Assembly (NCBI RefSeq): GCF_014495845.1
Contig: NZ_CP061080.1
Coordinates: 4,454,001-4,518,000 of the forward strand
Length of the DNA: 64,000 nt
Origin: Aquibium microcysteis
GTDB taxonomy: Bacteria > Pseudomonadota > Alphaproteobacteria > Rhizobiales > Rhizobiaceae
Reading direction: 5' to 3'
The position numbers and the translations under genes are program-made. Under the pieces are notes generated by a model. It saw only the letters and a program-made list of their open reading frames with translations. It did not search any database and had not been told where the DNA came from. Below are positions 19,264 through 39,371 of the stretch, piece by piece (the stretch's first letter is position 1; every line of letters begins with the position of its first letter).

Positions 19264-19294
19264 GATCGCTCTCCCCCAAAAATAACCGTGACGT

Positions 19295-19735: not shown

Positions 19736-19845
19736 CGGCGCCGCTCAGAGCGTGTGAATCAATCGGGTATGCAGAAGAATGCCCCCTGAAATCCTCGAAC
19801 CTATCGGCTCAAGCTGCGCGAAAACGGGCATGCTTCCACATCCTC

Positions 19846-20862: not shown

Positions 20863-20891
20863 GGCGTGTCTCCTCGTTGTTTCGGCAATCG

Positions 20892-22991: not shown

Positions 22992-24208
22992 GATCCGCCT
23001 CCCACGCGCTCGATACAGGTGGCGACGCCCATGCCCATGCCGACACAGAGCGTCACGACCCCGCTTTCGCGGCCGGTCCGTTCGAGCTCGTCGAGCAGCG
23101 TGCCAAGCAGCATGACACCCGTCGCACCGATCGGATGGCCCATGGCGATGGCGCCTCCGTTCACGTTGATGCGGTCGGAGCCCACGCCCGTCCTCTCCAT
23201 GAAGTGGAGGACGACCGAGGCGAAGGCCTCGTTCACCTCGTAGAGATCGATGTCCTGAAGCGTCCGCCCGGCGCGTGCGAGGCAGCGTCGTGTCGCGTCA
23301 GCCGGGGCCGCGAGCATCAGGCACGGGTCCATCGCGGCATTGGCAAAGGAGCGGATGACGGCGCGCGGCTCGAGCCCCATGCGCCGGCCAGCCTCCGCGG
23401 TGCCGATCAGCATGGCCGCCGCACCGTCGACGATGCCCGACGAATTGCCGGCGGTGTGGACGTGCGCGACCTTCGCCACTTGCGGATAGCGCTGGCGGAC
23501 GACGGCATCGAAACCGCCTTTCTCGCCCATGGCCTTGAAGGCGGCCGGCAGTTTCGCGAGGTCGTCCACCGTCGTGCCGGGCCGCATGTGTTCGTCGCGG
23601 TCCAGCATGAGGACGCCGTTTCCGTCGTGGACCGGAACGACGGACCGGTCGAAGCGGCGCTCGCTCCAGGCCGCGGCGGCCCGTTCCTGGGACATGGCCG
23701 CGAAGGTGTCGACGTCCGAACGCGTGTGGCCGCACAGGGTGGCGAGCAGGTCGGCCGCTTCGCCGAGCGGCGTGAAATGGGCTTCGTCATTGAAGATCGC
23801 GTCGGTGCCGTTCGGGCCGCCCGTCCCGGCGATCGGGATGATCGACATCATCTCGACGCCGCCCGCCACCAGCAGGTCGGCCTGGCCCGCCATGATCCGC
23901 GCTGCGGCCGCGTTGACGGCATCGAGACCGGAGGCACAGAAGCGGCTGATCGTGCAGCCCGGAATGCCGTCCGGCAGGCCTGCGTGGAGCACCGACGAGC
24001 GGGCGATGTTGGCGCCCTGGTCGTTGACGCCGTCGCCGCAGCCGAAGATGACGTCTTCGGGCTCGAAGCGGGAGAACCGGGTCCGCTCGTCGAGGGCCAA
24101 CAGCACCGTCGCCCCGAGATCGATCGGCGACAGCGTATGCAATGCGCCGGACGGGCGTCCCCTGCCGCGCGGCGTGCGCACGGAATCGAAGATGTAGGCC
24201 TCTGGCAA
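22988..24208 (-). CDS. Thiolase (acetyl-CoA acyltransferase)
   Basis: 406 residues from a TTG at 24208, chosen for GGGAGACGAG upstream; an in-frame ATG at 24256 lacks a ribosome site. Nucleophile Cys91 lies in ISRFCASGLDAV, the catalytic His in GGAIAMGHPIGATG and the second Cys in TLCVGMGMG. It cleaves 3-oxoacyl-CoA. First gene of a five-gene minus-strand operon (thiolase, FadJ-like, MDR, thioesterase, SDR). A putative MarR operator lies about 70 bases upstream. Confidence 0.92.
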   Translation of the reverse strand: MPEAYIFDSVRTPRGRGRPSGALHTLSPIDLGATVLLALDERTRFSRFEPEDVIFGCGDGVNDQGANIARSSVLHAGLPDGIPGCTISRFCASGLDAVNAAAARIMAGQADLLVAGGVEMMSIIPIAGTGGPNGTDAIFNDEAHFTPLGEAADLLATLCGHTRSDVDTFAAMSQERAAAAWSERRFDRSVVPVHDGNGVLMLDRDEHMRPGTTVDDLAKLPAAFKAMGEKGGFDAVVRQRYPQVAKVAHVHTAGNSSGIVDGAAAMLIGTAEAGRRMGLEPRAVIRSFANAAMDPCLMLAAPADATRRCLARAGRTLQDIDLYEVNEAFASVVLHFMERTGVGSDRINVNGGAIAMGHPIGATGVMLLGTLLDELERTGRESGVVTLCVGMGMGVATCIERVGGGS

Positions 24209-24277: not shown

Positions 24278-24291
24278 TTTAATATGTTAAT
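24278..24291 (+). promoter_or_regulatory. Putative MarR-regulon operator, site 1 (upstream of thiolase operon)
   Basis: TTTAATATGTTAAT with the dyad TTAA-N4-TTAA inside a longer AT-rich patch (24272-24296) in GC-rich surroundings. It is 70 bases before the thiolase start. Five similar sites occur upstream of other operons up to 36924. Confidence 0.6.
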
Positions 24292-24350
24292 AGAAATCGT
24301 CCGGCGGGTCCAGCCGCCGCGGCGCGGTTACCGAACGATTCCGGCAGACG

Positions 24351-25127
24351 CTACCGCGAAAGCCGGGTCGGCTTCGACCGCCGTTCCAACATGCCGAGCG
24401 GAACCATGATGACGCTCGAAAGCACGAGCAGCACGACGACCGCCGCGAACACGCCCGCCGAATGAAATTGCGAGGCCGAATACTCGATCAGGAAGCCGAG
24501 CCCCCGGTTCGAGGACAGGGCCTCCGACACGACGGTCGTCGTGAGCGCGTAGCCGAGCGATGTGCGCAGGCCGGTGTAGAGCCAGGGCAGGATCGCGGGC
24601 ATGCGCACCTTGCGCGTGATTTCCGCGCCACTGGCGCCCATCAGCCGCAGCCCGTCGATCATGTCGCGATCGATGTCGCGCACGCCGGCGAGCGTCGCGT
24701 AGAAGAGGAGGAAGATCACCACGGATGCGACCAGCGCCACCTTCGAGACGAGACCGATGCCGAAGAAGATGACGAACAGAGGCAGCAGCGCCACTTTCGG
24801 CAGGCCATAGAGCGCGGCGATGAACGGCGCGACGATCCGCTCCGTCTTCGGCGACAGGCCGAGCGCCAGTCCCAGGCCGATGCCCAGGACGGCGCCGACC
24901 AGATAGCCCATGAAAAGCGTCACGATGGTGGATCGGATGTGGACCCAGATCGATCCGTCGGCCAGCCACTTCCAGATCACGCTGGCGATGTCGAGCGGGT
25001 TGCTGATGTAGAAGGGTGGGATCAGACGTCCAGAAACGAACTGCCAGGCGCCGATCAGCAGGATGAGAAACGCGAGCTGCTGGACGAGCACCACGCGCGG
25101 GTTCAGGGGCCTTTGCCTATTGCGCAC
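24351..25127 (-). CDS. ABC transporter permease (TauC/SsuC type)
   Basis: 258 residues from a GTG start that overlaps the ATPase gene by 11 bases. About six membrane segments, with the EAA-loop region GLRLMGASGAEITRKVRMPAILP cut by the usual pattern (key residues MGAS and P). This is the inner-membrane channel of a nitrate/sulfonate/taurine-type importer. Last gene of the four-gene importer operon. Confidence 0.88.
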   Translation of the reverse strand: MRNRQRPLNPRVVLVQQLAFLILLIGAWQFVSGRLIPPFYISNPLDIASVIWKWLADGSIWVHIRSTIVTLFMGYLVGAVLGIGLGLALGLSPKTERIVAPFIAALYGLPKVALLPLFVIFFGIGLVSKVALVASVVIFLLFYATLAGVRDIDRDMIDGLRLMGASGAEITRKVRMPAILPWLYTGLRTSLGYALTTTVVSEALSSNRGLGFLIEYSASQFHSAGVFAAVVVLLVLSSVIMVPLGMLERRSKPTRLSR

Positions 25128-25980
25128 GACGTTCCCTCTCCACGCTGGCGGCGAACTCGTCCTTGAGTTCGCTCCACAGCTCTTCGTGGATGGCGCTGAA
25201 CTCGGGCCGGAAGCGCAGTTCCATGGCGTTTCGCGGCCGCTCGAAGGGAATGTCGCGCTCGGTCCGGATCCGGCCGGGCCCGGAGGTGAAGACCATGACG
25301 CGATCGGCCATCAGCACCGCCTCTTCCAGGTCGTGGGTGACGAGGATGACGGTCATCTGCCGGCGTTCGACGAGACGCAGCAGTTCCTGCTGCATCAGGA
25401 TGCGAAGCTGCGCGTCGAGCGCGGCGAACGGCTCGTCGAGCAGCAGCGTCTCCGGTTCGTAGATCAGCATGCGGGCAAGGGAAGCGCGCTTGCGCATCCC
25501 CCCGGACAGCTCGGCGGGAAAGTGGCGTTCGAAGCCCTTCAGGCCGACGAGGTCGATCATCTCGGCGACACGCTCGCGGCGCTCAGCGGCACTGGCCTTG
25601 CGGCACCGCAGCTCGAAGGCGATGCCGATGTTGTCGGCCACGCTGCGCCAGGGCAGCAAGGTGTCCTTCTGGGTCATGTAGCCGACGCGGGTGTTGGCCG
25701 CCTGAACCGGCGCGCCGTCATAGGTGACGGTGCCTTCGCTCGGCGCGAGCAGGCCGGCCACCATGTTGAGGACGGTGGACTTGCCGCAGCCGCTCGGCCC
25801 CACGAGGGCCAGGAACTGCATTTCGGGCACCTCGATCGTGACGTTCTCGACGGCGCGGAACGTCTTGCCGCGCGTCGTGAAATCGACGGCGACCTTGTCG
25901 AGGCCGATCTTCCGCCGACGGGCCGGCGAAGGGCCGGTGGAGGGCTCGGACCGGACGAGTTGCAGATGGGCCATGGTCAT
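25117..25980 (-). CDS. ABC transporter ATP-binding protein (TauB/SsuB type)
   Basis: 287 residues. Walker A GPSGCGKST, signature LSGGMRKRASLAR, Walker B LLLDEPFAALD and the switch His in VTHDLEEA are all intact. The ATG overlaps the upstream permease stop (ATGA). It energises the importer together with the two flanking permeases. Confidence 0.93.
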   Translation of the reverse strand: MTMAHLQLVRSEPSTGPSPARRRKIGLDKVAVDFTTRGKTFRAVENVTIEVPEMQFLALVGPSGCGKSTVLNMVAGLLAPSEGTVTYDGAPVQAANTRVGYMTQKDTLLPWRSVADNIGIAFELRCRKASAAERRERVAEMIDLVGLKGFERHFPAELSGGMRKRASLARMLIYEPETLLLDEPFAALDAQLRILMQQELLRLVERRQMTVILVTHDLEEAVLMADRVMVFTSGPGRIRTERDIPFERPRNAMELRFRPEFSAIHEELWSELKDEFAASVERERRAQ

Positions 25981-26741
25981 CGTCCTCGGGTTTCCAGATG
26001 GCGCCAGCGGAGCAGCCGGTTCTCGACCAGGGTCGTCGCCTCGTTGATCATTGCTCCCACGACCATCAGGACGAACAGCGCGGTGTAGATCCCGGTCATG
26101 TCGAACTGCTGGGCGGAACGGGTGATGAGATGACCGAGCCCGTTGCGCGACAGCATCATCTCGCCGATCACCGCGGCGATGAGCGCATAGGGCAGGGCGT
26201 TCTTCAGCCCGGCGATGGTCCAGGTCAGGCAGGACGGCACGACGACCTTGACGAAACGTTCCCGGGCATCGGCGCCCATCAAGGCCAGCGTGTCCATCAG
26301 TTCGTCATCCACGGCGCGCGCGCCGGAAAACGAGTTGAAGAACATCAGCAGGAAGGAGACGAACGCCACCAGCACGATCTTGGGCTGCATGCCGAGACCG
26401 AACCACATGATCAGCAGCGGAGTCAGCGCCACGATCGGCAGGGAGTTCATCAGGACGATGAACGGCCGGAAGACGGCCGCCATCCTCTGCGAGCGCCCCA
26501 ACAGCATTCCGGTGAGAACGCCGAGCGGGATGCCGATCGCCAGGCCTGCGCCGATCTCGGCGCCGGTGATCATCATGTGGTACCAGAGGTCGCCCGCCAT
26601 CCACTGTGCGAGCCTCTCTGCGATGGCCACCGGACTGCTGATCCAGCGGTCCGATATCAGGCGTGCGCATGCCTCCCATGACGCGAGCATCACGGCCAGG
26701 AGCACGGCGCGCTGCACCCAGAGCCTGGACGAATCGGTCAC
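25977..26741 (-). CDS. ABC transporter permease (TauC/SsuC type)
   Basis: 254 residues, GTG start. About six membrane segments and the EAA-loop region LMGADARERFVKVVVPS. With the permease at 24351 it gives a heterodimeric channel rather than the more usual homodimer of this family. It begins nine bases behind the binding-protein gene. Confidence 0.88.
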   Translation of the reverse strand: MTDSSRLWVQRAVLLAVMLASWEACARLISDRWISSPVAIAERLAQWMAGDLWYHMMITGAEIGAGLAIGIPLGVLTGMLLGRSQRMAAVFRPFIVLMNSLPIVALTPLLIMWFGLGMQPKIVLVAFVSFLLMFFNSFSGARAVDDELMDTLALMGADARERFVKVVVPSCLTWTIAGLKNALPYALIAAVIGEMMLSRNGLGHLITRSAQQFDMTGIYTALFVLMVVGAMINEATTLVENRLLRWRHLETRGR

Positions 26742-26750
26742 CGGTCCGAC

Positions 26751-27806
26751 CTACTGCTTCAGGAGTTCGGCCGCCGCCTTTTCCGCGAAACTGTCGTCGA
26801 CGAACTCGTCATAGGTGACCGTGACCGGCTCGGGCGAGGCGATGGCCACCCAGTCGAGCAGTTTCTGATAGCCTTCCCTGGAGGTGACCGGAGTGGTCGC
26901 GGATTTTCCGCGGAAGGTCGGCTCGAAACCGTCGAAGAGGGCCTGATCCGTGTCGGGGAAGTAGCTCTTGAGCCTGGCTCCGACGCCGTCCGGATCGGCT
27001 GCCTGGGCGAGCATCGCCTTGGTCAGGGCATTGACCATGCGCTGGACGAGTTCGGGCTTTTCCTTCGTCAGCGCACCACGGGTGATGATGGCCGTGTAGG
27101 GGACGCCTTCGAGTTCGGGAATGCTCTCGGTCAGGGGGTCGATGACGATCTTGCCGAGCCCGGCGGCCTCGGCCTGCTGGGGGAACGGCGAGCCCAGCAT
27201 GAAGCCATCGACGGCGCCCTGCTCGAATGCGGCGAACATGGCCGGCGGGCTGCCCAGCGGCTGGATCGTCAGCCGCTGCTCGACATCCTTGCCCCGCTGC
27301 TTGAGCCAGCTGCGCAGGAGGACGTCGGTGGTGCTGCCGATCCCGGTGACGCCGACGGACACCGCCTGAAGCTTCTCGACCTTCTCGTCGATGGGCATCT
27401 CGGGAGAGATCCCGGTCTTCTCGATCGCGGCGTTCGAAAGCACGAGCTGGATGGCGTAGCCGTTGAAGAGACTGGCCACCGAGACGAGATCGGCGCCGTT
27501 CTGGCGCGCGGTCATCGCCGGCTGCATGCCGACGACGGCGAAATCGGCGCTGCCGCCCGCGACCGCGGCGATCTGGCGCGAACCGGCTCCGACGTCGACC
27601 CAGTCGATCCTGATCCCCTCCTTTTCGAAGAGGCCCTCGGATTCGGCGACGTAGAAGGGGTAGAAATGCAGCGCCGCACCGGGCGTGGCGATGGTGACGG
27701 TCTGCGTGTCCTGGGCAATGGCCGGTGCTGAAACGGCGACCGCCGCCGCGAGCGCAAACGCCCGCAGGGAATGGCTCAGCGCGAATGCTTTCCGATACTC
27801 AGTCAT
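26751..27806 (-). CDS. ABC transporter substrate-binding protein (TauA/SsuA, NMT1-like)
   Basis: 351 residues from the ATG at 27806, chosen for GGGAGGAATCC and the signal peptide (cut near AIA-QD, residue 32). The mature protein has the NMT1/THI5-like fold: FYPFYVAESEGLFEKEG, then GGSADFAVVG and GSPFPQQAEAAGLG. The family binds sulfonates, nitrate, pyrimidines or aromatic acids; the ligand here is unknown. First gene of the importer operon, with a putative MarR operator 88 bases upstream. Confidence 0.9.
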   Translation of the reverse strand: MTEYRKAFALSHSLRAFALAAAVAVSAPAIAQDTQTVTIATPGAALHFYPFYVAESEGLFEKEGIRIDWVDVGAGSRQIAAVAGGSADFAVVGMQPAMTARQNGADLVSVASLFNGYAIQLVLSNAAIEKTGISPEMPIDEKVEKLQAVSVGVTGIGSTTDVLLRSWLKQRGKDVEQRLTIQPLGSPPAMFAAFEQGAVDGFMLGSPFPQQAEAAGLGKIVIDPLTESIPELEGVPYTAIITRGALTKEKPELVQRMVNALTKAMLAQAADPDGVGARLKSYFPDTDQALFDGFEPTFRGKSATTPVTSREGYQKLLDWVAIASPEPVTVTYDEFVDDSFAEKAAAELLKQ

Positions 27807-27893
27807 GGATTCCTCCCGAGGTCTCATTCGCCGGACAGGACTGACGGACGGTGCGTCGGTCGAGCTCCTCCCTGTGTCGGCCACCCAAAACTA

Positions 27894-27907
27894 ATTAACT
27901 TGTTATA
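27894..27907 (+). promoter_or_regulatory. Putative MarR-regulon operator, site 2 (upstream of ABC importer operon)
   Basis: ATTAACTTGTTATA, aligned to TTTAANNTGTTAAT with mismatches at the ends, inside the AT-rich run 27888-27911. It lies between the importer genes and the end of the dehydrogenase gene at 27926. Confidence 0.55.
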
Positions 27908-27925
27908 TTTTTGCAAGCTTCGATG

Positions 27926-28834
27926 TCAGCCGCCCGGCGCGTCAGGGCTGTCGCCGACGACGACCTCGCCCCACTCTTCGAACACCTTGATCATGGTGGA
28001 GTAGTCGGATTCCGCCCCCAGTTTCGAGGCGATGTGGTTGAACACGCCTGAGACGGTGGTGCCGATCGCGGCCGGCATGCGCATGTCGTGTGCGAGTTCA
28101 AGATAGAGGTCGATGTCCTTCAGACCGATCGCCAGCGGCCCGCCATAGCTGAAGCTCCGCGGCAGGATCGACTTCGGAAACTTGTCCATGGTGGCGGAAT
28201 TCCGCCCCGTGCTCACGTTGATGACATCGATCATCGTGCGGGCGTCGAGGCCGGCCTTGACGCCCATCGAAACCGCCTCGCAAGTCGCGACCATGGCGGT
28301 GATGGACAGGATGTTGTTCACCAGCTTGCAGACCTGCGCCATGCCCGGCTCCGGCCCGATGACGAAGATGTTGGAGGCGACCGCCGCCAGAGCCGGCCGC
28401 GCAGCCTCGATGCTTTCCGCCGAGCCCGAGACGATCGCCGTGAGCAGGCCTTCCACCGCCCCGCGCGGCCCGCCGCTCACGGGCGCGTCGAGGAAGCCGA
28501 TACCTGCGGCCGCCATCGATCCGCCGATCTGGGTGACGGCGTCGCGTCCGAGCGTCGACATCTCGACATAGGTCGTGATCCGGTCGCCGTGAACGACGCC
28601 GTCGTCGCCGAAGGCGGTATCGAAGCTCGCCTTCTTGCCGGGCAGGCAGGCGAGGACGAGTTCGGCGTCATCGGCCACGGCGCGGGGATGCGCCGCGATC
28701 TGGCCGCCGGCCGCCTCCAGCCGTCGCATCGCGTCCGCGGAGGTGTCGAAGCCGACCACCTCGTGACCGCTCCCGATCATCCGGACCGCCATCGCGCCAC
28801 CCATGTGGCCGAGACCGATCATCCCGATTTTCAT
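27926..28834 (-). CDS. Beta-hydroxyacid dehydrogenase (3-hydroxyisobutyrate dehydrogenase family)
   Basis: 302 residues. An N-terminal Rossmann motif GLGHMGGAMA, substrate segment DAPVSGGPRGA and the catalytic Lys region (KLVNNI, then GLKDIDLYLE). The family oxidises or reduces beta-hydroxyacids such as 3-hydroxyisobutyrate or tartronate semialdehyde. The start overlaps the stop of the decarboxylase homologue upstream (ATGA), so the two are coupled and probably act on consecutive steps. Cofactor and substrate cannot be read from sequence. Confidence 0.88.
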   Translation of the reverse strand: MKIGMIGLGHMGGAMAVRMIGSGHEVVGFDTSADAMRRLEAAGGQIAAHPRAVADDAELVLACLPGKKASFDTAFGDDGVVHGDRITTYVEMSTLGRDAVTQIGGSMAAAGIGFLDAPVSGGPRGAVEGLLTAIVSGSAESIEAARPALAAVASNIFVIGPEPGMAQVCKLVNNILSITAMVATCEAVSMGVKAGLDARTMIDVINVSTGRNSATMDKFPKSILPRSFSYGGPLAIGLKDIDLYLELAHDMRMPAAIGTTVSGVFNHIASKLGAESDYSTMIKVFEEWGEVVVGDSPDAPGG

Positions 28835-29556
28835 GTCCGTTCCTTCCTTGGAAATTCCGTCTGGTAGAGACGGCCGAAACCCGGTGCGTGGCCGGGCCGG
28901 CCGGTCAGCCGAAGCGCGGCCCAGGCACCGACCATGGCGCTCGACAGGACCGGCAGGTCGAATTCGGCTTCCAGCACCGGACTGACGGTGTGAGTGGAGA
29001 GCCCGGCGCAGGAAATCACGAGCGCATCGGCGCGCGGGGCCTGGTCCCGAACCCGGCGCGCGAGGGCCGCGATTTGTTCGGGACCGGCCTGTTCGGCAGC
29101 TGAGAGCGAGACGATGTCCAGCCCGTCGATGGCATCGATGAAGAAGCCCTCGGCCGAGAAATAGGACGTGAACAGCGCATTCACGTCGTGCGTATAGGCC
29201 GTCGCGACCGCGAGGCGGCGCGCCGACACGATCGTCAGCGCATCGACGAGGGCGCTGGTCAGCGTCCTGCAGGGGAGACCGCTCGCCTGCGTCATCCTGT
29301 GCTCGAGTTCGGCGTTGAAGGCTGGACCGCGGAAGAAACTCAGCGACGTGCCGAACAGCAGGACGGCTTCGGCCCCACGGCGTGCGAGCGAAGCGCAGGC
29401 GGTTTCCAGCCGGGCGACCGCCTCGGCATAGCCGGCCTCGGACATGCCGGACACGCCCAGGCCCTCGACCAGGAAATCGACGTCGGGAAACATCGCCGCC
29501 CCGTCCGGAGGAACGCGTCCCCGCTCCGGCGGAACGACGAGCCCGACTCGCGCCAT
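28831..29556 (-). CDS. Arylmalonate decarboxylase / Asp-Glu racemase family protein
   Basis: 241 residues from the ATG at 29556 (GGGAG ribosome site); an in-frame TTG nine bases up is less likely. It resembles Bordetella arylmalonate decarboxylase along its full length (240 residues). By my recollection of that enzyme, Thr75, Ser76, Tyr126 and Cys188 form the active site; here Thr70, Ser71, Tyr121 and Cys183 sit at a constant offset of five (GTSLSFFRG, TAYTHDV, ISCAGLS). A single active-site Cys rather than two argues for a decarboxylase rather than a racemase. It pairs with the dehydrogenase at 27926. The true substrate is unknown. Confidence 0.8.
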   Translation of the reverse strand: MARVGLVVPPERGRVPPDGAAMFPDVDFLVEGLGVSGMSEAGYAEAVARLETACASLARRGAEAVLLFGTSLSFFRGPAFNAELEHRMTQASGLPCRTLTSALVDALTIVSARRLAVATAYTHDVNALFTSYFSAEGFFIDAIDGLDIVSLSAAEQAGPEQIAALARRVRDQAPRADALVISCAGLSTHTVSPVLEAEFDLPVLSSAMVGAWAALRLTGRPGHAPGFGRLYQTEFPRKERT

Positions 29557-29592
29557 GTCTCCCAAGTCGGCCCCTCCATGTCCCGAGAATTA

Positions 29593-29606
29593 TTTAATAT
29601 GATAAA
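29593..29606 (+). promoter_or_regulatory. Putative MarR-regulon operator, site 3 (divergent decarboxylase and TRAP genes)
   Basis: TTTAATATGATAAA in an AT-rich patch 37 bases before the decarboxylase start and about 105 before the TRAP small permease. It could control both directions. Confidence 0.55.
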
Positions 29607-29711
29607 CATTGACAGCCTCCGTTGCCAGCCCCTACCCTCGCCTTCATCCGTGAAGCCGGGGCGAATTTCGGCGGCTTGGGGGCAGGAAGCACACGGGTCC
29701 GGGAGGTGGCG

Positions 29712-30188
29712 ATGAGCCTGGTGACGCGCGTCGTCGATCTGATATCGGGATTCCTGCTGGCCTTGATCGCTCTCACCACTTTCGGTGAAGCGACGCTCCG
29801 CTATCTTTTCGCGATCCAGATTCCCGATGCCTATACCCTTTCGGGCTACGCCCAGGCGATCGCCATCTTCTGGGGAATCTGCAGCGCGACCTACGCCGGA
29901 CGGCACATCACCGTGGATCTCCTGTGGGAGTATCTGGGCCGGAACGGCCGTCGCCTGCTCGATCTCGTCGCGACGCTGTTCAGCGCCCTGTTCCTCGGGG
30001 CGATGACCTGGATGCTGTTCGCCAAGGTGCATCGCGCGCACGGCAGTTTCGAGATCACCAGCGTTCTTCACTGGCCGATCTGGCCCTTCATCGCGGCGGC
30101 CGCGGCCGGCATCGCCGCCGCCTTCTTCTTTGCAGTCCTGCGCCTGGCGAAGATCGCCCGCGGCGGCACCGGTGAGATCCATGACTGA
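29712..30188 (+). CDS. dctQ: TRAP transporter small permease (DctQ)
   Basis: 158 residues from the ATG at 29712 (GGGAGGTGGCG upstream). Four membrane segments and the DctQ pattern FGEATLRYLF ... ITVDLLWE. It is the small inner-membrane subunit of a tripartite ATP-independent transporter for carboxylates. The stop overlaps the dctM start by eight bases. Confidence 0.9.
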   Translation: MSLVTRVVDLISGFLLALIALTTFGEATLRYLFAIQIPDAYTLSGYAQAIAIFWGICSATYAGRHITVDLLWEYLGRNGRRLLDLVATLFSALFLGAMTWMLFAKVHRAHGSFEITSVLHWPIWPFIAAAAAGIAAAFFFAVLRLAKIARGGTGEIHD

Positions 30189-31482
30189 TACGCTCATCGC
30201 CATCGGCGGATTCGTGGGTCTCTTCGTCCTGATCATCCTCAGGGTCCCGATCGGATTCGCGATGGGCATCGCGGGTGTGGCGGGTTTCGCCGCCGTCAGC
30301 GGCTGGAAGCCCGGTCTCAACCTGCTGATGAACTCGCCGCTCCGAACCGCTTCGGACTACACGCTGAGCGTCATCCCGATGTTCGTCCTGATGGGCGTCT
30401 TCGCCAGCGCCTCGGGCATGAGCCGCGAACTGTTTCGCGCCAACCGCGCATGGTTCGGTCACCTGCGCGGCGGGACGGCCATCTCCACCATCCTCGCCTG
30501 CGGCGGGTTCGCGGCCATCAACGGTTCGTCCGTCGCGACCGCGGCCACCATGACGACCGTCGCTTTGCCGGAGATGCGCAAGGCCGGCATGGAACCCGGG
30601 CTTGCGGCGGGCACGATTGCCGCGGGCGGCACGCTGGGGATCATGATCCCGCCGTCCGTCACGATGCTGATCTACGGGATCCTTACCGAGCAGGACATCG
30701 CCAAGCTGTTCATGGCCGGCGTGATCCCGGGCCTTCTCGGCATTCTTCTCTACATCGCCGTCGTGCGCATCATCGTGGCAAGGAGGCCCGAGCTCTGCCC
30801 CGTCGGCGAACGCATGGGGAGACGCGAACGGTGGAGCTCACTGCGCGACATCTGGGCAACCCTTCTGCTCTTCGCCGTCATCATCGGATCGATCTATGGC
30901 GGCTTCGTAACGGTGACTGAAGCAGCCGGCATCGGCGCGACCGGAGCCTTCGCGATCGGCGTGCTGCGCGGGCGCCTGAATGCGGCGCTGGTCGTGGAGT
31001 GCCTGGTGGAAGCGCTTCGCACCACCGCGTCCATCTTCGTCATCGCCATCGGCGCCTATCTCTTCGGGTACTTCCTCACCGTCACGCAGACGGCCCAGGC
31101 GCTGGCCGAAATGCTGGTGGAACTGCCGATCGGTCCCTATGGCACGCTGGCGATCATTCTGCTGGTCTACATTCTCCTCGGCGCCGTGATGGACGAACTG
31201 GCCATCATCCTGCTCACCGTGCCGATCATCTTTCCCGTGATCGTCGCGCTCGGCTTCGACCCGATCTGGTTCGGCGTGATCATCGTCATGACCGTGACGC
31301 TCGGCCTGATCACGCCTCCCGTCGGCATGAACGTCTTCGTCATCAACTCGATCGCCCGGGATGTGTCGCTGACGACCATCTTCCGCGGCGTGGCGCCGTT
31401 CATTGCGGTGGACATCCTGCGTCTGGTGGTCCTGTGCGCTGTGCCCTGGCTGTCGCTCGTGATCCCGAACTCGATGAACTGA
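30181..31482 (+). CDS. dctM: TRAP transporter large permease (DctM)
   Basis: 433 residues with about 12 membrane segments. DctM hallmarks are IPMFVLMGVFAS, the GTLGIMIPPSVTMLIYG motif and LITPPVGMNVFVIN. It is the sodium-coupled channel subunit working with DctQ and, presumably, the DctP protein at 32888, which is placed in a separate unit on the other strand. The ATG is inside the dctQ end. Confidence 0.93.
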   Translation: MTDTLIAIGGFVGLFVLIILRVPIGFAMGIAGVAGFAAVSGWKPGLNLLMNSPLRTASDYTLSVIPMFVLMGVFASASGMSRELFRANRAWFGHLRGGTAISTILACGGFAAINGSSVATAATMTTVALPEMRKAGMEPGLAAGTIAAGGTLGIMIPPSVTMLIYGILTEQDIAKLFMAGVIPGLLGILLYIAVVRIIVARRPELCPVGERMGRRERWSSLRDIWATLLLFAVIIGSIYGGFVTVTEAAGIGATGAFAIGVLRGRLNAALVVECLVEALRTTASIFVIAIGAYLFGYFLTVTQTAQALAEMLVELPIGPYGTLAIILLVYILLGAVMDELAIILLTVPIIFPVIVALGFDPIWFGVIIVMTVTLGLITPPVGMNVFVINSIARDVSLTTIFRGVAPFIAVDILRLVVLCAVPWLSLVIPNSMN

Positions 31483-31545
31483 CCAGCGGGACCGCCGCAC
31501 CGGATTCGCCGCAGCCGGCCATCGCCGGGGGCGCGGCGACGACGT

Positions 31546-32349
31546 TCAGATAACGCCGCCAGCCGGACGTGGACGAACCGATGCGAAGTCCGGCGCTTCG
31601 CGTGCCAGGAAAGCACGCAGGCCCTCCCGGCTCTCCGGCGAGTGGCCGAGCGCGATCGCGTGGTCGAGCGCGGCATCGAGGGCTTCATCTTCAGCGAGCA
31701 GCAGGCCATCGCGCAGCGACTGCTTGATCATCGCCACCGCATCGCGAGGACCACGCGCAAAGCTGCGCGCGAGATCGAGAGCCTCGTCTTCGGCAGGTAT
31801 GGAGGTCGCCAGTCGGTTGACGAAGTTCCAGCGATGCGCGGTCGCCGCGTCGATTTCCTGCCCTGTCAGCATCATTTCGAGGGCGCGGACGTAGCCGATG
31901 CGGCGCGGAATCCAGACCGTCCCGCCAATGCCGGGAAAGACCCCGAGCCTGACCTCGGGTAGACAGAAGCGCGCCTTCTGCCCGGCGATGACGATGTCGC
32001 AGGCCGCTGCCAGTTCCATGCCGCCGCCGAAGGCGATGCCGTCGATCGCCGCGATGGTGGGGATCGGAAGCCCGGCCAGCGCGCGCAAGGCGCGGCTCTC
32101 GACGCGCAGCATCGACGCCGGACCTTCCGGCGTATCCTGAAGGCGCGCCAGTTCGCGGATGTCGGAGCCGGCGCAGAACGTGCCTCCGGCGGTGCCGGTC
32201 ACGAGCACGGCGCCGATCCCGGCCGGGATGCCGGCGAGGATCGCAATCAGCTGCTCCGCCATCGCCGATGTCAGCGCGTTGGCGCTGCCGTTGACGAGGC
32301 GCAGGAGGAGAACGCCATCCTGCTCGATGGTCGACCTGATTTCACCCAT
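31546..32349 (-). CDS. Enoyl-CoA hydratase/isomerase (crotonase family)
   Basis: 267 residues. Crotonase fold: AGSDIRELAR for the oxyanion hole, FGGGMELAAACD with the first Glu and EVRLGVFPGIGG with the second. Catalytic residues look intact. Last gene of the dctP - NTF2-like - crotonase unit, four bases behind the NTF2-like stop. Could hydrate, isomerise or cleave a CoA ester; the reaction is not decidable. Confidence 0.88.
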   Translation of the reverse strand: MGEIRSTIEQDGVLLLRLVNGSANALTSAMAEQLIAILAGIPAGIGAVLVTGTAGGTFCAGSDIRELARLQDTPEGPASMLRVESRALRALAGLPIPTIAAIDGIAFGGGMELAAACDIVIAGQKARFCLPEVRLGVFPGIGGTVWIPRRIGYVRALEMMLTGQEIDAATAHRWNFVNRLATSIPAEDEALDLARSFARGPRDAVAMIKQSLRDGLLLAEDEALDAALDHAIALGHSPESREGLRAFLAREAPDFASVRPRPAGGVI

Positions 32350-32353
32350 CCGG

Positions 32354-32803
32354 TCAGGAGAGGCCCGTGCCGTCGGGCGCCCACGGGCAGTCGACGTCGC
32401 GCCAGTAGTGGACGCGACGCTCGCAGAACAGGAAGCTGGTCTCGGTCCGGCGGAAGTTGTCGGTCGAATAGCCGATCACCTCGAAGATCTTCCTGGCGGC
32501 CTCGGCATGCCACTTCGTCACGGTCCAGTAGGATTGGGTCTGGTAGCCCCATTCGGTGGGCGTGAGGCGAAGATTGTCGATGTGATGCTGGCGGCCGCGA
32601 AAGACCGGATTGGCCATCAATGCGCGGAAGTAGCCCTCGAAAGCCGCGCGTCCCGCGTAGACGTTGCCCGAGGTGTCCTGAAAGATCGCGTCGTCCGTGA
32701 ACAACGCGGAAAGCCTGTCGATGTCGGCGGTGTCGAGCGCCCAGACATAGTCGGCGATCAGGCTCTGGATCCTGGGGTAGTCGGCCCAGTTCGCATCTGT
32801 CAT
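32354..32803 (-). CDS. NTF2-like (SnoaL-type) protein
   Basis: 149 residues from the ATG at 32803; a GTG six bases upstream is possible. The single alpha+beta barrel domain has the pattern IQSLIADYVWALDTADIDRL followed by LFTDDAIF, as in SnoaL-like and ring-hydroxylating-dioxygenase small-subunit-like proteins. Members act as lyases, isomerases or subunits. It sits between the TRAP binding protein and a crotonase, so a role in the same catabolic route is likely; function otherwise unknown. Confidence 0.75.
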   Translation of the reverse strand: MTDANWADYPRIQSLIADYVWALDTADIDRLSALFTDDAIFQDTSGNVYAGRAAFEGYFRALMANPVFRGRQHHIDNLRLTPTEWGYQTQSYWTVTKWHAEAARKIFEVIGYSTDNFRRTETSFLFCERRVHYWRDVDCPWAPDGTGLS

Positions 32804-32844
32804 CGGCACGGTGGCTGTTCCTTGCGTTGAAAAGCAGATGAGGG

Positions 32845-32880
32845 AGGCCGCCGTCGCCCGGAAGCGGTCGACGGCGGCCT
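32845..32880 (-). terminator. Strong hairpin between dctP and the NTF2-like gene
   Basis: A perfect 12-bp inverted repeat (AGGCCGCCGTCG and its complement, 12-base loop) eight bases behind the dctP stop. There is no immediate T-run, so it is more likely a partial terminator or mRNA-stabilising hairpin that keeps the binding protein highly expressed. Confidence 0.6.
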
Positions 32881-32887
32881 TCGGTTC

Positions 32888-33898
32888 TCAGTAGCGGGCG
32901 TCGTTGGCGTCGAGCCGCTCGAACAGTTCGGCCTGCACCTGCTTGGCATTGATGCCGTAGCGATCACCGGCGGTCTTCAGCACGTCGCCGACGAGGGGCG
33001 CGGCGGCTGCCTTCCACTTGGCGAATTCGTCTTCCGTAAGGGAATAGACGGTGTGTCCCTCGAGGCCCTTGAGCCGTTCGAGCGCGGCCATTTCGCCGTT
33101 CGCCCATCCCTGGTTCACCTTCGCCGACCACTCCGGCGTGCAATGGGCGTCGATGACGGCCTTCTGGCTATCCGTGAGGCCGGCATAGAAATCCTTGTTG
33201 ATCACCTGCGCCTGCGCGGTGATGTAGAAGGGCTCGCCCATATGGTACTTGAGCGCGCTCTCGGCCTTGATGACGAAGATGTCCGGCGGCCAGGTGACGC
33301 CGTCGACGACGCCGCGCTCGGCGAGTTCGCGGATCTCGGGAAGCGCCGCCTGCACCGTGTTGCCGCCCTGCGCGGTGACGAAGGCCGAGGTGACCGGACC
33401 GGCCGGGCGGATGCGGAGGCCGGATAGCTGATCCGGCGTGCGGACCTCCGTCTTCGTCGTGTGCAGCGTGCCCGGATGGTGCATCGTGACGAGGCAGACC
33501 TTCACGTCCGGCATTTCCCGGTCGGCATAGGCTGCGTACCATTCATGCAGCGCCTTGGCGCCATCCGTGCTGTTCTTGAAGGTGAAGGGAAGTTCGATGA
33601 TGCTCCAGATCGGAAACCGGCCGGCGGAATAGCCGGGGGCCACCATGGCCATGTCGACGATGCCGTCCCGGGCCATGTCGTAGTGGTCGCCCGCCTTGCC
33701 GAGCTGCTCGGCCGGGAAGAGCTTCACGGCGACCTCGCCGCCCGACGCCGCCTCGACGTCCTTGCCCCATTCCGTCAGGCCCGCGACGAGCGGATGCATC
33801 GGCGGAATCCACAGCGAGAACTTCATGTCGACCGCATGCGCCGCGCCCGGCCCCGCGAGGATGGTCGCAAGCGTCGCTGAAAGAAACAGTTTCTTCAT
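32888..33898 (-). CDS. dctP: TRAP transporter substrate-binding protein (DctP family)
   Basis: 336 residues from the ATG at 33898 (GGAGGAGACCAA upstream). Signal peptide cut at AHA-VD (residue 22). TRAP binding-protein features include the conserved Arg in LRIRPAGPVTSAFV, which normally salt-bridges a carboxylate ligand, and GVVDGVTWPP. The ligand is therefore likely an organic acid. It should serve DctQM at 29712-31482. A putative MarR operator is 44 bases upstream. Confidence 0.92.
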   Translation of the reverse strand: MKKLFLSATLATILAGPGAAHAVDMKFSLWIPPMHPLVAGLTEWGKDVEAASGGEVAVKLFPAEQLGKAGDHYDMARDGIVDMAMVAPGYSAGRFPIWSIIELPFTFKNSTDGAKALHEWYAAYADREMPDVKVCLVTMHHPGTLHTTKTEVRTPDQLSGLRIRPAGPVTSAFVTAQGGNTVQAALPEIRELAERGVVDGVTWPPDIFVIKAESALKYHMGEPFYITAQAQVINKDFYAGLTDSQKAVIDAHCTPEWSAKVNQGWANGEMAALERLKGLEGHTVYSLTEDEFAKWKAAAAPLVGDVLKTAGDRYGINAKQVQAELFERLDANDARY

Positions 33899-33941
33899 TT
33901 GGTCTCCTCCCAGAACGCGTCGAGGAATTCGACGCAAATTC

Positions 33942-33955
33942 TATAACAAATTAAA
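33942..33955 (-). promoter_or_regulatory. Putative MarR-regulon operator, site 4 (upstream of dctP)
   Basis: On the minus strand TTTAATTTGTTATA, close to the shared TTTAANNTGTTAAT pattern, 44 bases before dctP and inside the AT-rich run 33936-33956. Confidence 0.55.
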
Positions 33956-34032
33956 CATCTCGCGTCGCTTTTGTCCAGTTGCAGCCCTCGCATGCCGCGC
34001 CGGCGGCGACGATCGGGATCGGCTGGTCCCGG

Positions 34033-34503
34033 CTACAGGACCGCGAAATAATCGAAGACGGAGTGATCCGCGTGGCGCTCGGCGCGCCCGATGATGACCG
34101 TTCGGGTGAGCCAGTCATGGGGACCGCGCGGCGTGTCGAAAGTGGGCGAGAGCCGCATGTAGTAGTCGTCGGGACCCACGGGTTCGAGCGCTTCCATCTT
34201 GCGGGCCGTCTCCGGCGGTGCGTGGCGATAGCCATTGTTGCGCATGTAGATCTGGGTGCCGTCGTCGGCCTCGAGCATGTAGTGGGCGGTGAAGGCCACC
34301 GTGTCGTCCGGCCGGTAGAGCGCCCAGTCTCCGCCCGAGTTCGGAACCACGCGGCCGTTGAGACGAGGTCCCTCGATCTCGCCGCCGGCCGCGGCGACGA
34401 AGCCGCGAATGCCGCCGGACGGGAGTTCACCGATCTTCTGGCGCATGCCGAGCTTCAGACGGATCCGGAAGACGAATTCGAGCCTCGGGGGATTGATGTT
34501 CAT
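34033..34503 (-). CDS. DUF3237-family protein
   Basis: 156 residues from the ATG at 34503, which overlaps the CoA-ligase stop (ATGA); the frame is open much further up inside the ligase gene, which is only antiframe. It contains GGDWALYRPDDTVAFTAHY and DDGTQIYMRNNGYR, typical of DUF3237 beta-barrel proteins often found in catabolic operons. No biochemical role is known to me. Co-transcription with the CoA ligase suggests it acts on the same compound or its CoA ester. Confidence 0.8.
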   Translation of the reverse strand: MNINPPRLEFVFRIRLKLGMRQKIGELPSGGIRGFVAAAGGEIEGPRLNGRVVPNSGGDWALYRPDDTVAFTAHYMLEADDGTQIYMRNNGYRHAPPETARKMEALEPVGPDDYYMRLSPTFDTPRGPHDWLTRTVIIGRAERHADHSVFDYFAVL

Positions 34504-36071
34504 GCGCTTTCTCCTGGAACCGAGGATGCGGCCGTCCGGGCGACGTGCTCCTCGCGCAGCTGTTTCTTGGAAATCTTGCCGGCGCCGGTGAGGGGAAGGC
34601 TGTCGCGGAACTCGACCGTCCGCGGGCTCTTGTAGCGCGCGATCCGGTCCTTGCAGAAGCCTATGATCGCTTCCGGCTCCAGCGCGGCGCCGACTTGCGG
34701 CACCACGACGGCATGAACCGTCTCGCCCCAGAACGGATCCGGCACCCCGATCACGGCGACCTGCTTCACACCCTCCATCAGGCCGATGACGTTCTCGACC
34801 TCGAGGGAATAGACGTTCTCGCCGCCCGTGATGATCATGTCCTTGATGCGGTCGACGATGTAGAAGAATCCCTCGTCGTCGACATAGGCGGCGTCGCCCG
34901 TGTGCATCCAGCCGTCCCGCAGCGCCTTGGCGGTCTCCTCGGGAAGGTTCCAGTATTCCTTCATGACCATGGGGCCACGGACGACCAGTTCGCCGACCTC
35001 CCCGGGCGGGCACGCGCTGCCGTCGGGCGCGACGATGCGGGCTTCCTCGTTGTAGACGGGCATGCCGCAGGAGCGCATGCGGTGGCCGGCCGTTCTCGGA
35101 TCGCGCCATTCGAACGGCATCAGCATGCCGAGCGGCGAAATTTCGGTCATGCCCCAGCCGTGCAGGAAGAGGAGGTCGGGCCAGAGCCGGATCGCCCGGG
35201 CGAGCGTCGCATCCGGCATGGGCGCGGCGCCGAACTGGATCTGACGCAGCGACGAACAGTCGAAGCGCTCCTTTTCGGCAAGGTTCACCAGCATCTCGAT
35301 CATGGTGGGCACCAGACAGATGTGCGTGACCCCGTGGGCCTGGATGAGCTCCAGGCACTGGCGCGCGTCGAAACGGGGCATGAAGACATGGGTGCCGCCG
35401 GCCATCGTCAGCGAATAGGTCGACATGCCGTCGGTGAGGTGGAACATCGGCGCGGCGTGCAGATAGACGCTCTCCCGCCCATAGCCGATGAGCGCCACCG
35501 CGTTCAGGGCATTGGTCGAAAGATTGTCATGCGTCAGCACGACGCCCTTCGAGCGGCCGGAACTCCCGCCGGTGTAGAAGATGCCCGCCATCTCGTCCCC
35601 GCCGCGCATCCGGTCGGCGAGCGGCGAGGCTTCGGCCAGCATGGTCTCGTAGTCGATCCACCCGTCTGCGCCAGCGCCCGAAAGCGAAATCACCGCCTTC
35701 ATGCCCGACAGGATGTCGCCGAGCTGCCCGGCGCATTCGTGCTGCGAGTCGTCGACGACGAGCGCGACCGCGCCACTGTCTCTGAGAACATAGGCCACTT
35801 CGGCAGGCGAAAGGCGGGTGTTGATGGGGACCATCGCCGCTCCGGCCCAGGGCAGCGCGAACTCGAGCTCGAAGTAGCGGTCGCTGTTGAGGGCGAGCAA
35901 CGCGACGCGATCGCCCCTGCCGATGCCCAGCGCCGCGATGCCCCCGGCCGCCCGCGCGACGCGCTCCAGCACCTCGGTCCAGCTGCGTCTCCGCTCGCCG
36001 TCGACGGTAGCAAACCCGTTCCTGTTGACGAGCGCGGCGCGCTTGAGCGGCTGCGTGAGATAGGCTGGCAT
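34500..36071 (-). CDS. Acyl-CoA synthetase (adenylate-forming, class I)
   Basis: 523 residues from the ATG at 36071 (GGGAGGAGTCC upstream). AMP-binding P-loop YTGGSSGRSKG at 166-176 (the usual T-SG-T is S-SG-R here), HGWGMTEISPLG, the hinge region YIVDRIKDMIITGGENV and the catalytic C-terminal Lys in GAGKISKKQ. It activates a carboxylic acid as the CoA ester, probably the entry step for what the TRAP or ABC system imports. Operator site 5 lies 113 bases upstream. Confidence 0.93.
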   Translation of the reverse strand: MPAYLTQPLKRAALVNRNGFATVDGERRRSWTEVLERVARAAGGIAALGIGRGDRVALLALNSDRYFELEFALPWAGAAMVPINTRLSPAEVAYVLRDSGAVALVVDDSQHECAGQLGDILSGMKAVISLSGAGADGWIDYETMLAEASPLADRMRGGDEMAGIFYTGGSSGRSKGVVLTHDNLSTNALNAVALIGYGRESVYLHAAPMFHLTDGMSTYSLTMAGGTHVFMPRFDARQCLELIQAHGVTHICLVPTMIEMLVNLAEKERFDCSSLRQIQFGAAPMPDATLARAIRLWPDLLFLHGWGMTEISPLGMLMPFEWRDPRTAGHRMRSCGMPVYNEEARIVAPDGSACPPGEVGELVVRGPMVMKEYWNLPEETAKALRDGWMHTGDAAYVDDEGFFYIVDRIKDMIITGGENVYSLEVENVIGLMEGVKQVAVIGVPDPFWGETVHAVVVPQVGAALEPEAIIGFCKDRIARYKSPRTVEFRDSLPLTGAGKISKKQLREEHVARTAASSVPGESA

Positions 36072-36183
36072 GGACTCCTCCCGTTCCGAGCGTCTGCCGC
36101 CGGCCGCCCCCCCCGCTAGGGAATGGCCGACAGGACGGCGCCGCTCCTCCGCGGGCGCCATCGTCGTCGGACTGGAGTAGATA

Positions 36184-36197
36184 TTAAACAAGTTAAA
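36184..36197 (-). promoter_or_regulatory. Putative MarR-regulon operator, site 5 (upstream of CoA ligase)
   Basis: On the minus strand TTTAACTTGTTTAA, a near-perfect palindrome and the best copy of the shared dyad. It lies between the CoA-ligase start and the end of the MarR gene. Confidence 0.65.
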
Positions 36198-36254
36198 TAA
36201 ACAAGGTCAACCGCCGTGCCGCGAGATTGCGTCGGACGGGCGCCCGCGAAGACG

Positions 36255-36830
36255 CTAGCTCGCGACCTTTCGCGGACGTCCGCGAGCCTTCAGGGGCATT
36301 TGCGGGACGAGGTCCGCGGGCAATCCCTGATTTTCGGAGGGGAGGAACGTCAGCCCGGACACTTTTTCATCCAGCTCGACGAGAAGGCTCTGCAGTTGCC
36401 GCAGCTTCTCCGTGCCCATGACGTCGCGGATGCTGCGATAGACCGCACGCGCCTCCGGCGCGACGAGTTCGAATACGCCGGCGCCACGGTCGTTCAGCGA
36501 AACGAGCATTCTGCGCAGGTCCGACGGATCGTTGCGGCGGTTGATGTATTCGCGTTGTTCGAGTTCGCGCACGATGCGCGAGAGCGACGGGAACAGGATG
36601 GCCGTCATGCGCGCGAGTTCGGTCATCTCGACCTCCTCGAGCGATTCGATGGTCCAGATCACCCGCCATTGCGGCTCGGTGAGCCCATACTTGTGCAGGA
36701 CGGTGCGGAAGCTGCCCATCACGCTTTCGCGCGCGCGCACGATCGACAGCGGCAGGGCCTCGACCACCTGCTCCCGCGTCAGGTGCGGTTTGACCGGTTT
36801 CTTCCTGCGCTCACTTGCTGCCATGCCCAT
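36255..36830 (-). CDS. MarR-family transcriptional regulator, HpaR-like
   Basis: 191 residues from the ATG at 36830 (another ATG at 36824 is equally possible). The central part follows HpaR, the homoprotocatechuate-pathway repressor: LPLSIVRARESVMGSFR, then LTEPQWRVIWTIE, a winged helix and the wing RRNDPSDLRRMLVSL. The last 40 residues form a basic extension (KARGRPRK) not usual in the family and reminiscent of an AT-hook. It lies in the middle of the catabolic region and has one of the six shared operators upstream, so autoregulation is likely. Confidence 0.9.
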   Translation of the reverse strand: MGMAASERRKKPVKPHLTREQVVEALPLSIVRARESVMGSFRTVLHKYGLTEPQWRVIWTIESLEEVEMTELARMTAILFPSLSRIVRELEQREYINRRNDPSDLRRMLVSLNDRGAGVFELVAPEARAVYRSIRDVMGTEKLRQLQSLLVELDEKVSGLTFLPSENQGLPADLVPQMPLKARGRPRKVAS

Positions 36831-36910
36831 CCCGTTCAGGTGATTGCTGCCCTTCGTCTTCCCGCAAGGCCGGCGGAAAATCAAGTTGCGCGGCCGAGTG
36901 GCGGAAATTA

Positions 36911-36924
36911 ATAAATCTGTTAAT
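36911..36924 (+). promoter_or_regulatory. Putative MarR-regulon operator, site 6 (between marR and a divergent crotonase gene)
   Basis: ATAAATCTGTTAAT in an AT-rich stretch 81 bases before the MarR start and 99 before the crotonase start. It is the weakest of the six on the left arm, but it is placed where autoregulation would need it. Confidence 0.5.
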
Positions 36925-37022: not shown

Positions 37023-37847
37023 ATGCAGTTTTCGGATTTGGCAGTCACCCATCACGGCAATGTGGCATGCATCGCGATCGTCCGCCCCGAGACGAAGAAC
37101 GCATTGCGTCGCGAGACACTGGAACAGTTGCGCGCCGCGATGGCCGCGCTTTCGGCGCGTCCGGACGTGCGTGCCATGGTGCTGACCGGCTGCGAGAGCG
37201 GCTTCTGCTCGGGCGCCGACCTGTCCGACCCGATGATGGGCGGTCACCTGCCGCCCGAACGGCGCGGCGAAGCCTGCGCATCCGTGCTCGACGGATTGAT
37301 GCATGCGCTGATCCGTGACGTGCGCAACGCGCCCTTTCCGGTGGTCGTCGCCGTGAACGGCGTGGCTGCCGGCGGCGGCGTGGGGCTGGCCCTGGCCGGC
37401 GACATCGCGATCGCGGCGCGCTCGGCGCGCTTCGTCCTGACGTTCACGTCGAAGCTGGGCCTCGTGCCGGACCTCGGCACGTCGTGGCAGCTGGCCCGTA
37501 CGCTCGGCCGCGCGCGGGCGCTCGGGGTTCTCCTGACGGGCCAGCCGCTCTCTTCCGAACAGGCGCTCGACTGGGGGCTGATCTGGTCCGTCGCCGAGGA
37601 CGATGGCTTGAGGGAGCAGGCACTGAGCCTCGCCGCCAGGCTTGCGGCCGGGCCGGTAGCCGGACAGGTCGCGACCCGCCGCTTGCTCGACCATGCCTTC
37701 GTAAGCGACCTCGACAGCCAGCTGGACGCCGAGCGCGACGCGCAGGCATCGCTGGTGGGCGGTTCCGAGGTGATGGAAGCCATGCAGGCCTTTGCCGCGC
37801 GCCGCGCGCCCGACTTCCTGGCGGCCGGCCGGACCGGGAAATCCTGA
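37023..37847 (+). CDS. Enoyl-CoA hydratase/isomerase, PaaG-like
   Basis: 274 residues from the ATG at 37023 (AGAGGAG upstream). Crotonase fold with SGADLSDPM for the oxyanion region. The first catalytic Glu position reads GGGVGLALAGD (Val) and the second FTSKLGLVPDLGTSW (Asp), as in PaaG-type ring-epoxide isomerases, which use one Asp. It is read away from the marR gene and probably belongs to the same regulon. An isomerase role is more likely than plain hydration. Confidence 0.85.
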   Translation: MQFSDLAVTHHGNVACIAIVRPETKNALRRETLEQLRAAMAALSARPDVRAMVLTGCESGFCSGADLSDPMMGGHLPPERRGEACASVLDGLMHALIRDVRNAPFPVVVAVNGVAAGGGVGLALAGDIAIAARSARFVLTFTSKLGLVPDLGTSWQLARTLGRARALGVLLTGQPLSSEQALDWGLIWSVAEDDGLREQALSLAARLAAGPVAGQVATRRLLDHAFVSDLDSQLDAERDAQASLVGGSEVMEAMQAFAARRAPDFLAAGRTGKS

Positions 37848-39303: not shown

Positions 39304-39371
39304 GGATAACTCCTCCCAATTCCGAACGTCTTCGTCGGCAGCGTCAAATCTGGATGGCGCGCGGTCCGATG

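Follow-up and report, generated by a model that had tools for sequence, protein, structure and literature searches.

A 64,000-nt stretch of the genome of Aquibium microcysteis (GCF_014495845.1, NZ_CP061080.1 positions 4,454,001-4,518,000; 67% GC), referred to here in its full length as the window, contains a block of importer and enzyme genes in which six AT-rich dyads are found. The palindromic form of these dyads is WTTAAYWWRTTAAW, consisting of two TTAA half-sites separated by a 4-bp spacer (TTAA-N4-TTAA); one dyad has perfect half-sites on both sides, and the remaining five show 1-2 departures. A preliminary description had placed the dyads at 24278, 27894, 29593, 33942, 36184 and 36911, each 37-113 bases before an operon, and had read them as the marks of a single MarR regulon. 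All six are present at these coordinates, and measured to the likely start codons the spacing is about 37 to 113 bp, as described. Judged from sequence, the dyads are most probably operators, bound by the HpaR-type MarR protein that 36255-36830 encodes, and define one regulon, and it is very likely that the block is under one control. The dyads, to which no strand is assigned, are as follows.

24278..24291, no strand: dyad a, TTTAATATGTTAAT, 70 bp 5' of the thiolase operon
27894..27907, no strand: dyad b, ATTAACTTGTTATA, 88 bp 5' of the ABC importer operon
29593..29606, no strand: dyad c, TTTAATATGATAAA, separating dctQM from the divergent operon for homologues of arylmalonate decarboxylase (AMDase) and 3-hydroxyisobutyrate dehydrogenase (HIBADH)
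33942..33955, no strand: dyad d, TATAACAAATTAAA, 44 bp 5' of the dctP operon
36184..36197, no strand: dyad e, TTAAACAAGTTAAA, 113 bp 5' of the CoA ligase gene
36911..36924, no strand: dyad f, ATAAATCTGTTAAT, separating the divergent marR and crotonase genes, with 2 mismatches to the palindrome

The genes of the block, with the matches on which their names are based, are these.

18508..24208, minus strand: thiolase operon (thiolase, FadJ-like protein, zinc-type dehydrogenase, thioesterase-family protein, SDR), whose spacing suggests one transcript
24351..27806, minus strand: ABC importer operon (binding protein, permease, ATPase, permease); Pfam match for the binding protein, the others below the cut-offs of transporter models
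27926..28834, minus strand: HIBADH-like protein (Pfam; below the HIBADH cut-off, 168.6 vs 291.6)
28831..29556, minus strand: AMDase-like protein (NF052327, 242.8 bits vs a cut-off of 225; PDB 3dg9)
29712..31482, plus strand: TRAP permeases dctQ and dctM
31546..32349, minus strand: second crotonase-family enzyme, in the dctP operon (among the models shown, none above its cut-off)
32354..32803, minus strand: small dctP-operon protein near TIGR02246 (33.1 bits vs a cut-off of 33.95), for which 'SnoaL-type' is a label given here
32888..33898, minus strand: TRAP solute-binding protein dctP
34033..34500, minus strand: DUF3237 protein
34500..36071, minus strand: acyl-CoA ligase (Pfam AMP-binding; NF004837, 479.9 vs 476 bits)
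36255..36830, minus strand: HpaR-like MarR regulator with a C-terminal RGRPRK tail, the likely binder (TIGR02337; PDB HpaR 7el2)
37023..37847, plus strand: crotonase-family enzyme (nearest model PaaG, below cut-off, 216.2 vs 345.15 bits)

Rarity, conservation and recurrence of the dyads

The window's genome, a single contig of 6,109,263 bases, was scanned with IUPAC patterns and mismatches rather than with a weight matrix. With the consensus of the preliminary description and up to 3 mismatches, 12 strand-wise matches are found in the window where 1.36 are expected, and none of 100 shuffles reaches 12; ten of these matches fall on the six dyads, one (36197) overlaps the dyad at 36184, and one lies elsewhere (53247, 3 mismatches). 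When up to 2 mismatches are allowed, the six dyads are the sole matches of the pattern WTTAAYWWRTTAAW in the window (0.06 expected; six reached in 0 of 100 shuffles), and at this stringency the window indeed holds no similar copy elsewhere, as had been claimed. The window count is partly circular, because WTTAAYWWRTTAAW was derived from the same sites, and the counts from the whole genome and from other genomes are therefore the fairer test, with the other genomes carrying more weight.

Genome-wide, all five places that match with at most 1 mismatch are inside the block, so that matches are commoner here than elsewhere; the opposite outcome had been named in advance as one that would speak against a regulon. 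Allowing 2 mismatches gives 21 places, the six of the block plus 15 that are scattered, against 28 for a reversed-pattern control, and given that control no claim is made for the scattered places as added members of the regulon. Perfect copies of TTAAYNNRTTAA number three in the genome (one in the reversed control): one within dyad a at the thiolase operon, one at the homoprotocatechuate (hpa) operon discussed below, and one elsewhere. A perfect TTAACCAGTTAA occupies G000:C1:3273534-3273545 (G000 being the window's genome), and the same 12 bases occur in Aquibium carbonis (C107:88926-88937). Two open reading frames neighbouring it have no NCBIfam match at E 1e-40, and the site was left out of the regulon.

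Close orthologues of the MarR protein occur in A. carbonis (93% identity), in an uncultured Mesorhizobium metagenome-assembled genome (MAG; 87%) and in a Pseudooceanicola MAG (69%). When each dyad is compared with A. carbonis together with 5 bp on either side (24 bases, gaps scored as differences), five dyads are identical at 114/120 positions (95%), as against 497/663 (75%) in the remainder of the same intergenic regions. The individual values are 24/24 for dyad b, 21/24 for e, and 23/24 for each of c, d and f; in the Mesorhizobium MAG they are 19/24 (a), 24/24 (b), 21/24 (e) and 24/24 (f).

The dyads also recur where gene order has changed. For the scans of other genomes the pattern was fixed beforehand from the window, with up to 1 mismatch. 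In the accompanying homologue searches, identities were disregarded where the query (crotonase, dctQ, AMDase and dctM, in one search each) was in a wrong frame or (zinc-type dehydrogenase) in a doubtful one, as was an out-of-frame A. carbonis AMDase row with 5 stops. Homologues of block genes are preceded by four of the six matches in the A. carbonis genome and by all three in the Mesorhizobium MAG. Gene order is rearranged in the Pseudooceanicola MAG, where, to name one case, a single run (the dctP-AMDase run) combines homologues of dctP, dctQ, AMDase and HIBADH. All six of its matches are in the homologous gene set. Five of them precede block homologues: the ABC importer, the dctP-AMDase run, a second dctP, a DUF3237/thiolase pair and the counterpart of the small dctP-operon protein. 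The remaining match stands before genes for SnoaL-domain and crotonase-domain proteins followed by marR, and a two-mismatch site precedes the CoA ligase gene. In this genome a cytochrome P450 gene (L067:4580-5752) separates the dctP-AMDase run from the ABC importer. In a more distant genome, G1092 (MarR identity 51%), two of three matches precede homologues: one sits between two divergent marR genes and the other is at the thiolase gene. On another contig, the third follows directly after the 3' end of a pair of DUF3237 genes, which also has a two-mismatch dyad on its 5' side. Seven perfect copies of TTAAYNNRTTAA occur in G1092, at the thiolase gene, hpaF and the DUF3237 pair and at 4 places elsewhere. 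Paired DUF3237 genes are flanked on either side by dyads on contig 10 of G1092 and adjoin the thiolase dyad in the Mesorhizobium MAG (L066:5037-5880); DUF3237 looks like a core member of the regulon. The comparison of orthologous loci that the preliminary description had proposed thus finds dyads recurring before homologous, rearranged genes.

As further support, two same-genus genomes in which no close MarR occurs have 0 matches and 3 matches (on three contigs), respectively. Other genomes are less informative. Eleven of 12 further genomes contain matches, with a range of 0-17 per genome and of 0-27 for the reversed control, and G032 and G144 have 2 and 3; neither set says much as a control.

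Regulators that might bind the dyads

The nearest solved relative of the MarR protein is HpaR (PDB 7el2), and the protein passes the TIGR02337 model (HpaR equivalog) marginally, with 122.2 bits against a cut-off of 121.2 (123.3 in the genome scan). The dyads fit the footprinted HpaR operator: in the available part of PMC7180172, the footprints of Yersinia HpaR have the form TTAA-XXXX-TTAA, similar to the E. coli W sites, and one of them overlaps a -10 element. Similar dyads accompany HpaR-like marR genes elsewhere. A set of 42 HpaR-like marR loci from the same family and order (34-51% identity) was assembled, with the window's genome, the close orthologues and one duplicate left out; loci were obtained for 30 of the 37 places in one of the searches behind this set, and G1001 and G1052, apparently conspecific with L046 and L047, were not counted as independent. 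A WTTAACWWGTTAAW dyad (up to 2 mismatches) is present within 300 bp upstream of marR in 21 of the 42 loci, where shuffles expect 0.25; the loci contain 28 dyads in all, 22 of them in that upstream interval. Ten of the 21 dyad-bearing loci come from a single genus, and so the 21 are not all independent. On a Chelativorans plasmid, where hpaR and hpa genes are annotated, ATTAACATGTTAAC lies between hpaR and the hpa operon, and a Rhizobium hpaR that is not beside hpa genes has a dyad directly downstream.

The MarR protein and its orthologues terminate in ARGRPRK or a similar sequence. RGRP is the core of the AT-hook, and the motif [RK]G[RK]P occurs within the last 45 residues in 104 of the 120 homologues listed (95 of 104 among proteins of at least 165 aa). 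The Pfam AT_hook model (PF02178) gives no match for the window's MarR, and two homologues reach 14.9 and 13.1 bits against a cut-off of 17.4; the tail, which has the RGRP core, is AT-hook-like. Among the 42 loci an upstream dyad is found in 1 of 6 tailed and 20 of 36 untailed cases, and a tail is hence no predictor of a dyad next to marR. The idea that AT-hooks read AT tracts flanking the dyads was dropped, as in tailed and tail-less sets alike the AT content has dropped to background at distances above about 6 bp from the core. The looser dyad cores of the tailed set may be an effect of the search patterns and of related rows. In the literature searched, the one paper with both 'MarR family' and (once) 'AT-hook' is PMC8308502, the title of which concerns multiple resistance in Salmonella; such a search does not establish the tail as undescribed.

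The arrangement suggests how control might work. A MarR dimer would bind the TTAA-N4-TTAA dyads, which would overlap or adjoin promoters, and would thereby block RNA polymerase at eight transcription units: the thiolase operon, the ABC importer, AMDase-HIBADH, dctQM, the dctP operon, CoA ligase-DUF3237, marR and crotonase. HpaR is released from DNA by hydroxyphenylacetate or a related ligand. Here an intermediate of the pathway would release MarR from the dyads, and as to the class of ligand, an aryl carboxylate is likeliest, or the CoA thioester that the block's own CoA ligase would form from it.

Several observations weigh against control of the block by the local MarR, or against details of it. 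The promoter scan is weak, with 3 sites found and 1.5 expected. Two are overlapped by dyads in the correct orientation (dyad c overlaps the -10 of a promoter-like site at 29628-29599, minus strand, and dyad e lies within TTGACC-18-TAATAT, minus strand, 36210-36181), and the third points away from the thiolase gene. Dyad a is missing in A. carbonis (12/24 identical, no match at up to 3 mismatches), and two of the six genome-wide matches in that species are located elsewhere. Half of the HpaR-like marR loci (21/42) have no upstream dyad; neither do two of the nearest other tailed homologues, L017 and L018 (49 and 51% identity), have one within about 1.5 kb, nor Azotobacter hpaR upstream of the gene. 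Repression is uncertain, because according to the available text of PMC7180172 Yersinia HpaR also has a target of unlike sequence, TGGXT-XXXX-AXCCA, at which it acts as an activator. Furthermore, each of five genomes holds at least one further HpaR-type protein above the TIGR02337 cut-off, and the paralogue in the window's genome (G000:C1:1251950) scores 165.5 bits as compared with 123.3 for the local MarR. Since such proteins are found in each genome, and since the G1092 orthologue of MarR is itself below the cut-off (117.9), co-occurrence fails to single out the local protein.

The dyads could accordingly be of the HpaR type and yet be bound by this paralogue, alone or together with the local MarR, in which case the block would answer homoprotocatechuate-type ligands. 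Besides the higher score, which is paralleled by comparable proteins in A. carbonis (168.1) and the Mesorhizobium MAG (164.5), this explanation has in its favour the hpa operon of the window's genome (G000:C1 about 4372051-4376755), which is 77 kb left of the window and has its own TTAA-N4-TTAA dyad and no marR homologue in the 20 kb around it. The site there, about 20 bp before the first hpa gene, is TTAACGCGTTAA, with TTAACGTGTTAA in its place in A. carbonis. However, both of these hpa-operon sites have C/G at their inner positions, where T is found in a third of the block-class half-sites (27 sites), and this difference suggests two classes of operator. In addition, no dyad is found in the 18 kb around the paralogue gene, whereas the local marR has one, and the dyads travel with the block. 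We consider binding by the paralogue unlikely. Because of the dyad in its own promoter, the absence of one at the paralogue's, and the looser form of the block sites relative to the hpa-operon sites, the local MarR is favoured. The preliminary description had called it the obvious binder; it is the best reading of the sites, their recurrence and their HpaR operator form, but with a second, higher-scoring HpaR in the genome the choice is unproven.

Two other explanations are much less probable. The nearest other regulator gene encodes a LysR protein (39415-40320), which might control the block via the dyads. What lies beside the LysR gene is a different palindrome, TGTAAAACATGTTTTA (39370-39385), placed between it and a divergent gene for a DesA/LigM-like O-demethylase and largely kept in A. 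carbonis; this is probably the site of LysR or of another regulator. With no LysR or O-demethylase homologue in the two (short) Mesorhizobium MAG contigs that keep the dyads, and with such dyads accompanying HpaR-like marR genes elsewhere, control by LysR is highly improbable. That the dyads are ordinary AT-rich promoter elements, conspicuous in GC-rich DNA, would account for their position just before genes, and AT-rich promoters are to be expected at 67% GC. This notion is largely refuted, and has next to no probability left, given that the palindrome has no other match in the window (up to 2 mismatches) or the genome (up to 1) and that the dyads are better conserved than their surroundings. 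The single MarR regulon proposed at the outset is thus supported: dyads precede the operons, five of six are better conserved than the adjoining DNA, and they recur in rearranged loci and have the HpaR operator form.

The possible pathway and known systems

The block would serve the uptake and breakdown of an acid that is probably aromatic. Its AMDase homologue has counterparts in the Pseudooceanicola MAG (NF052327 230.1, over the cut-off) and in G1092 (222.4, under it). With respect to the 13 residues of the Bordetella prototype in Table 4 of PMC4996985, eight are identical (including G74, T75, S76, Y126 and C188); the changes are L40V, V43M, V156L, M159A and G189A. The operon partner here is the HIBADH homologue, and in G1092 a GMC oxidoreductase gene is divergent from that for the AMDase homologue, with an aldehyde dehydrogenase and two more GMC oxidoreductases in the cluster. 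HIBADH-like and GMC enzymes belong to alcohol-oxidising families, and we therefore propose that an alcohol would be oxidised to a malonate-type acid, which would then be decarboxylated to an arylacetate.

No hpa gene is among the proteins identified in the block. In G1092 the homologous cluster continues into a homoprotocatechuate operon with HpaE, HpaD and HpaH above their cut-offs, a CHMI-family gene before it, a FAA-hydrolase gene within it and a two-mismatch dyad 5' of its first gene. The hpa operon of the window's genome is near genes for a ParB-family protein, MnmG and MnmE. A fuller scheme, which is speculative and has a low probability as a whole, would be an arylmalonate-decarboxylase pathway in which a tropate-like 2-aryl-3-hydroxypropanoate, or a related acid derived from lignin or alkaloids, is imported, oxidised to an arylmalonate in steps that begin with the HIBADH-like enzyme and converted by AMDase to an arylacetate, which would pass through CoA steps and, after hydroxylation or O-demethylation, enter homoprotocatechuate ring cleavage. 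The AT-hook-tailed HpaR would sense the arylacetate or its CoA ester and would also control the distant hpa operon. The CoA ester is a leading candidate for the ligand, because Agrobacterium HpaR is listed with acyl-CoA ligands in the available part of PMC10458429. As to the earlier claim that the dyads join these genes into one pathway, shared control is supported, but the pathway itself is deduced from that shared control.

The gene at 37930-39303, next to the block, encodes a syringate/vanillate O-demethylase-like protein (DesA, 609 bits, cut-off 800; LigM, 547, cut-off 580). Because both scores are below the cut-offs, its substrate is possibly another methoxyaryl compound. It is not claimed for the regulon, having no such dyad 5' and no homologue in the two Mesorhizobium MAG contigs.

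The analysis turns about 20 generically named genes into one testable regulon that contains an AMDase homologue, and the co-regulated importers, dehydrogenase and CoA ligase provide concrete candidates for its partners and for growth substrates. It also suggests a tailed subfamily to which many automatically named HpaR proteins belong, and of which some members control regulons other than hpa, so that the automatic name can mislead.

The following comparisons draw on the parts of the cited reports that were available. AMDase genes of the Bordetella type lie beside TRAP and ABC transporter genes, as here (PMC4996985); the word MarR is nowhere in the main text of that report, and 5 of the 13 listed Bordetella residues are changed in the window's homologue. 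DesR of Sphingobium SYK-6 (vanillate/syringate) is likewise a repressor of the MarR family, and a single kind of inverted repeat stands in front of several separate genes there, but the repeats, GTTTGTGTCACATAC and GTTTGTGTAACATAC, are unlike the dyads described here (PMC6888825). HpaR of Agrobacterium fabrum is a MarR protein listed as a repressor of hydroxycinnamate degradation with p-coumaroyl-CoA and feruloyl-CoA as ligands (PMC10458429). A close parallel in operator form is HpaR of E. coli W and Yersinia pseudotuberculosis, also of the MarR family, with a TTAA-N4-TTAA operator and one Yersinia site over the -10 (PMC7180172); two operators are described there on the hpaG1 promoter, as against six over 12.6 kb here. 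The RGRPRK tail of the window's MarR is absent from the hpa-cluster HpaRs of Chelativorans and Azotobacter. The regulon thus appears to be of the known HpaR kind, and differs from the hpa-operon repressor, as described in those sources, in its tail, its gene set and its possible second target.

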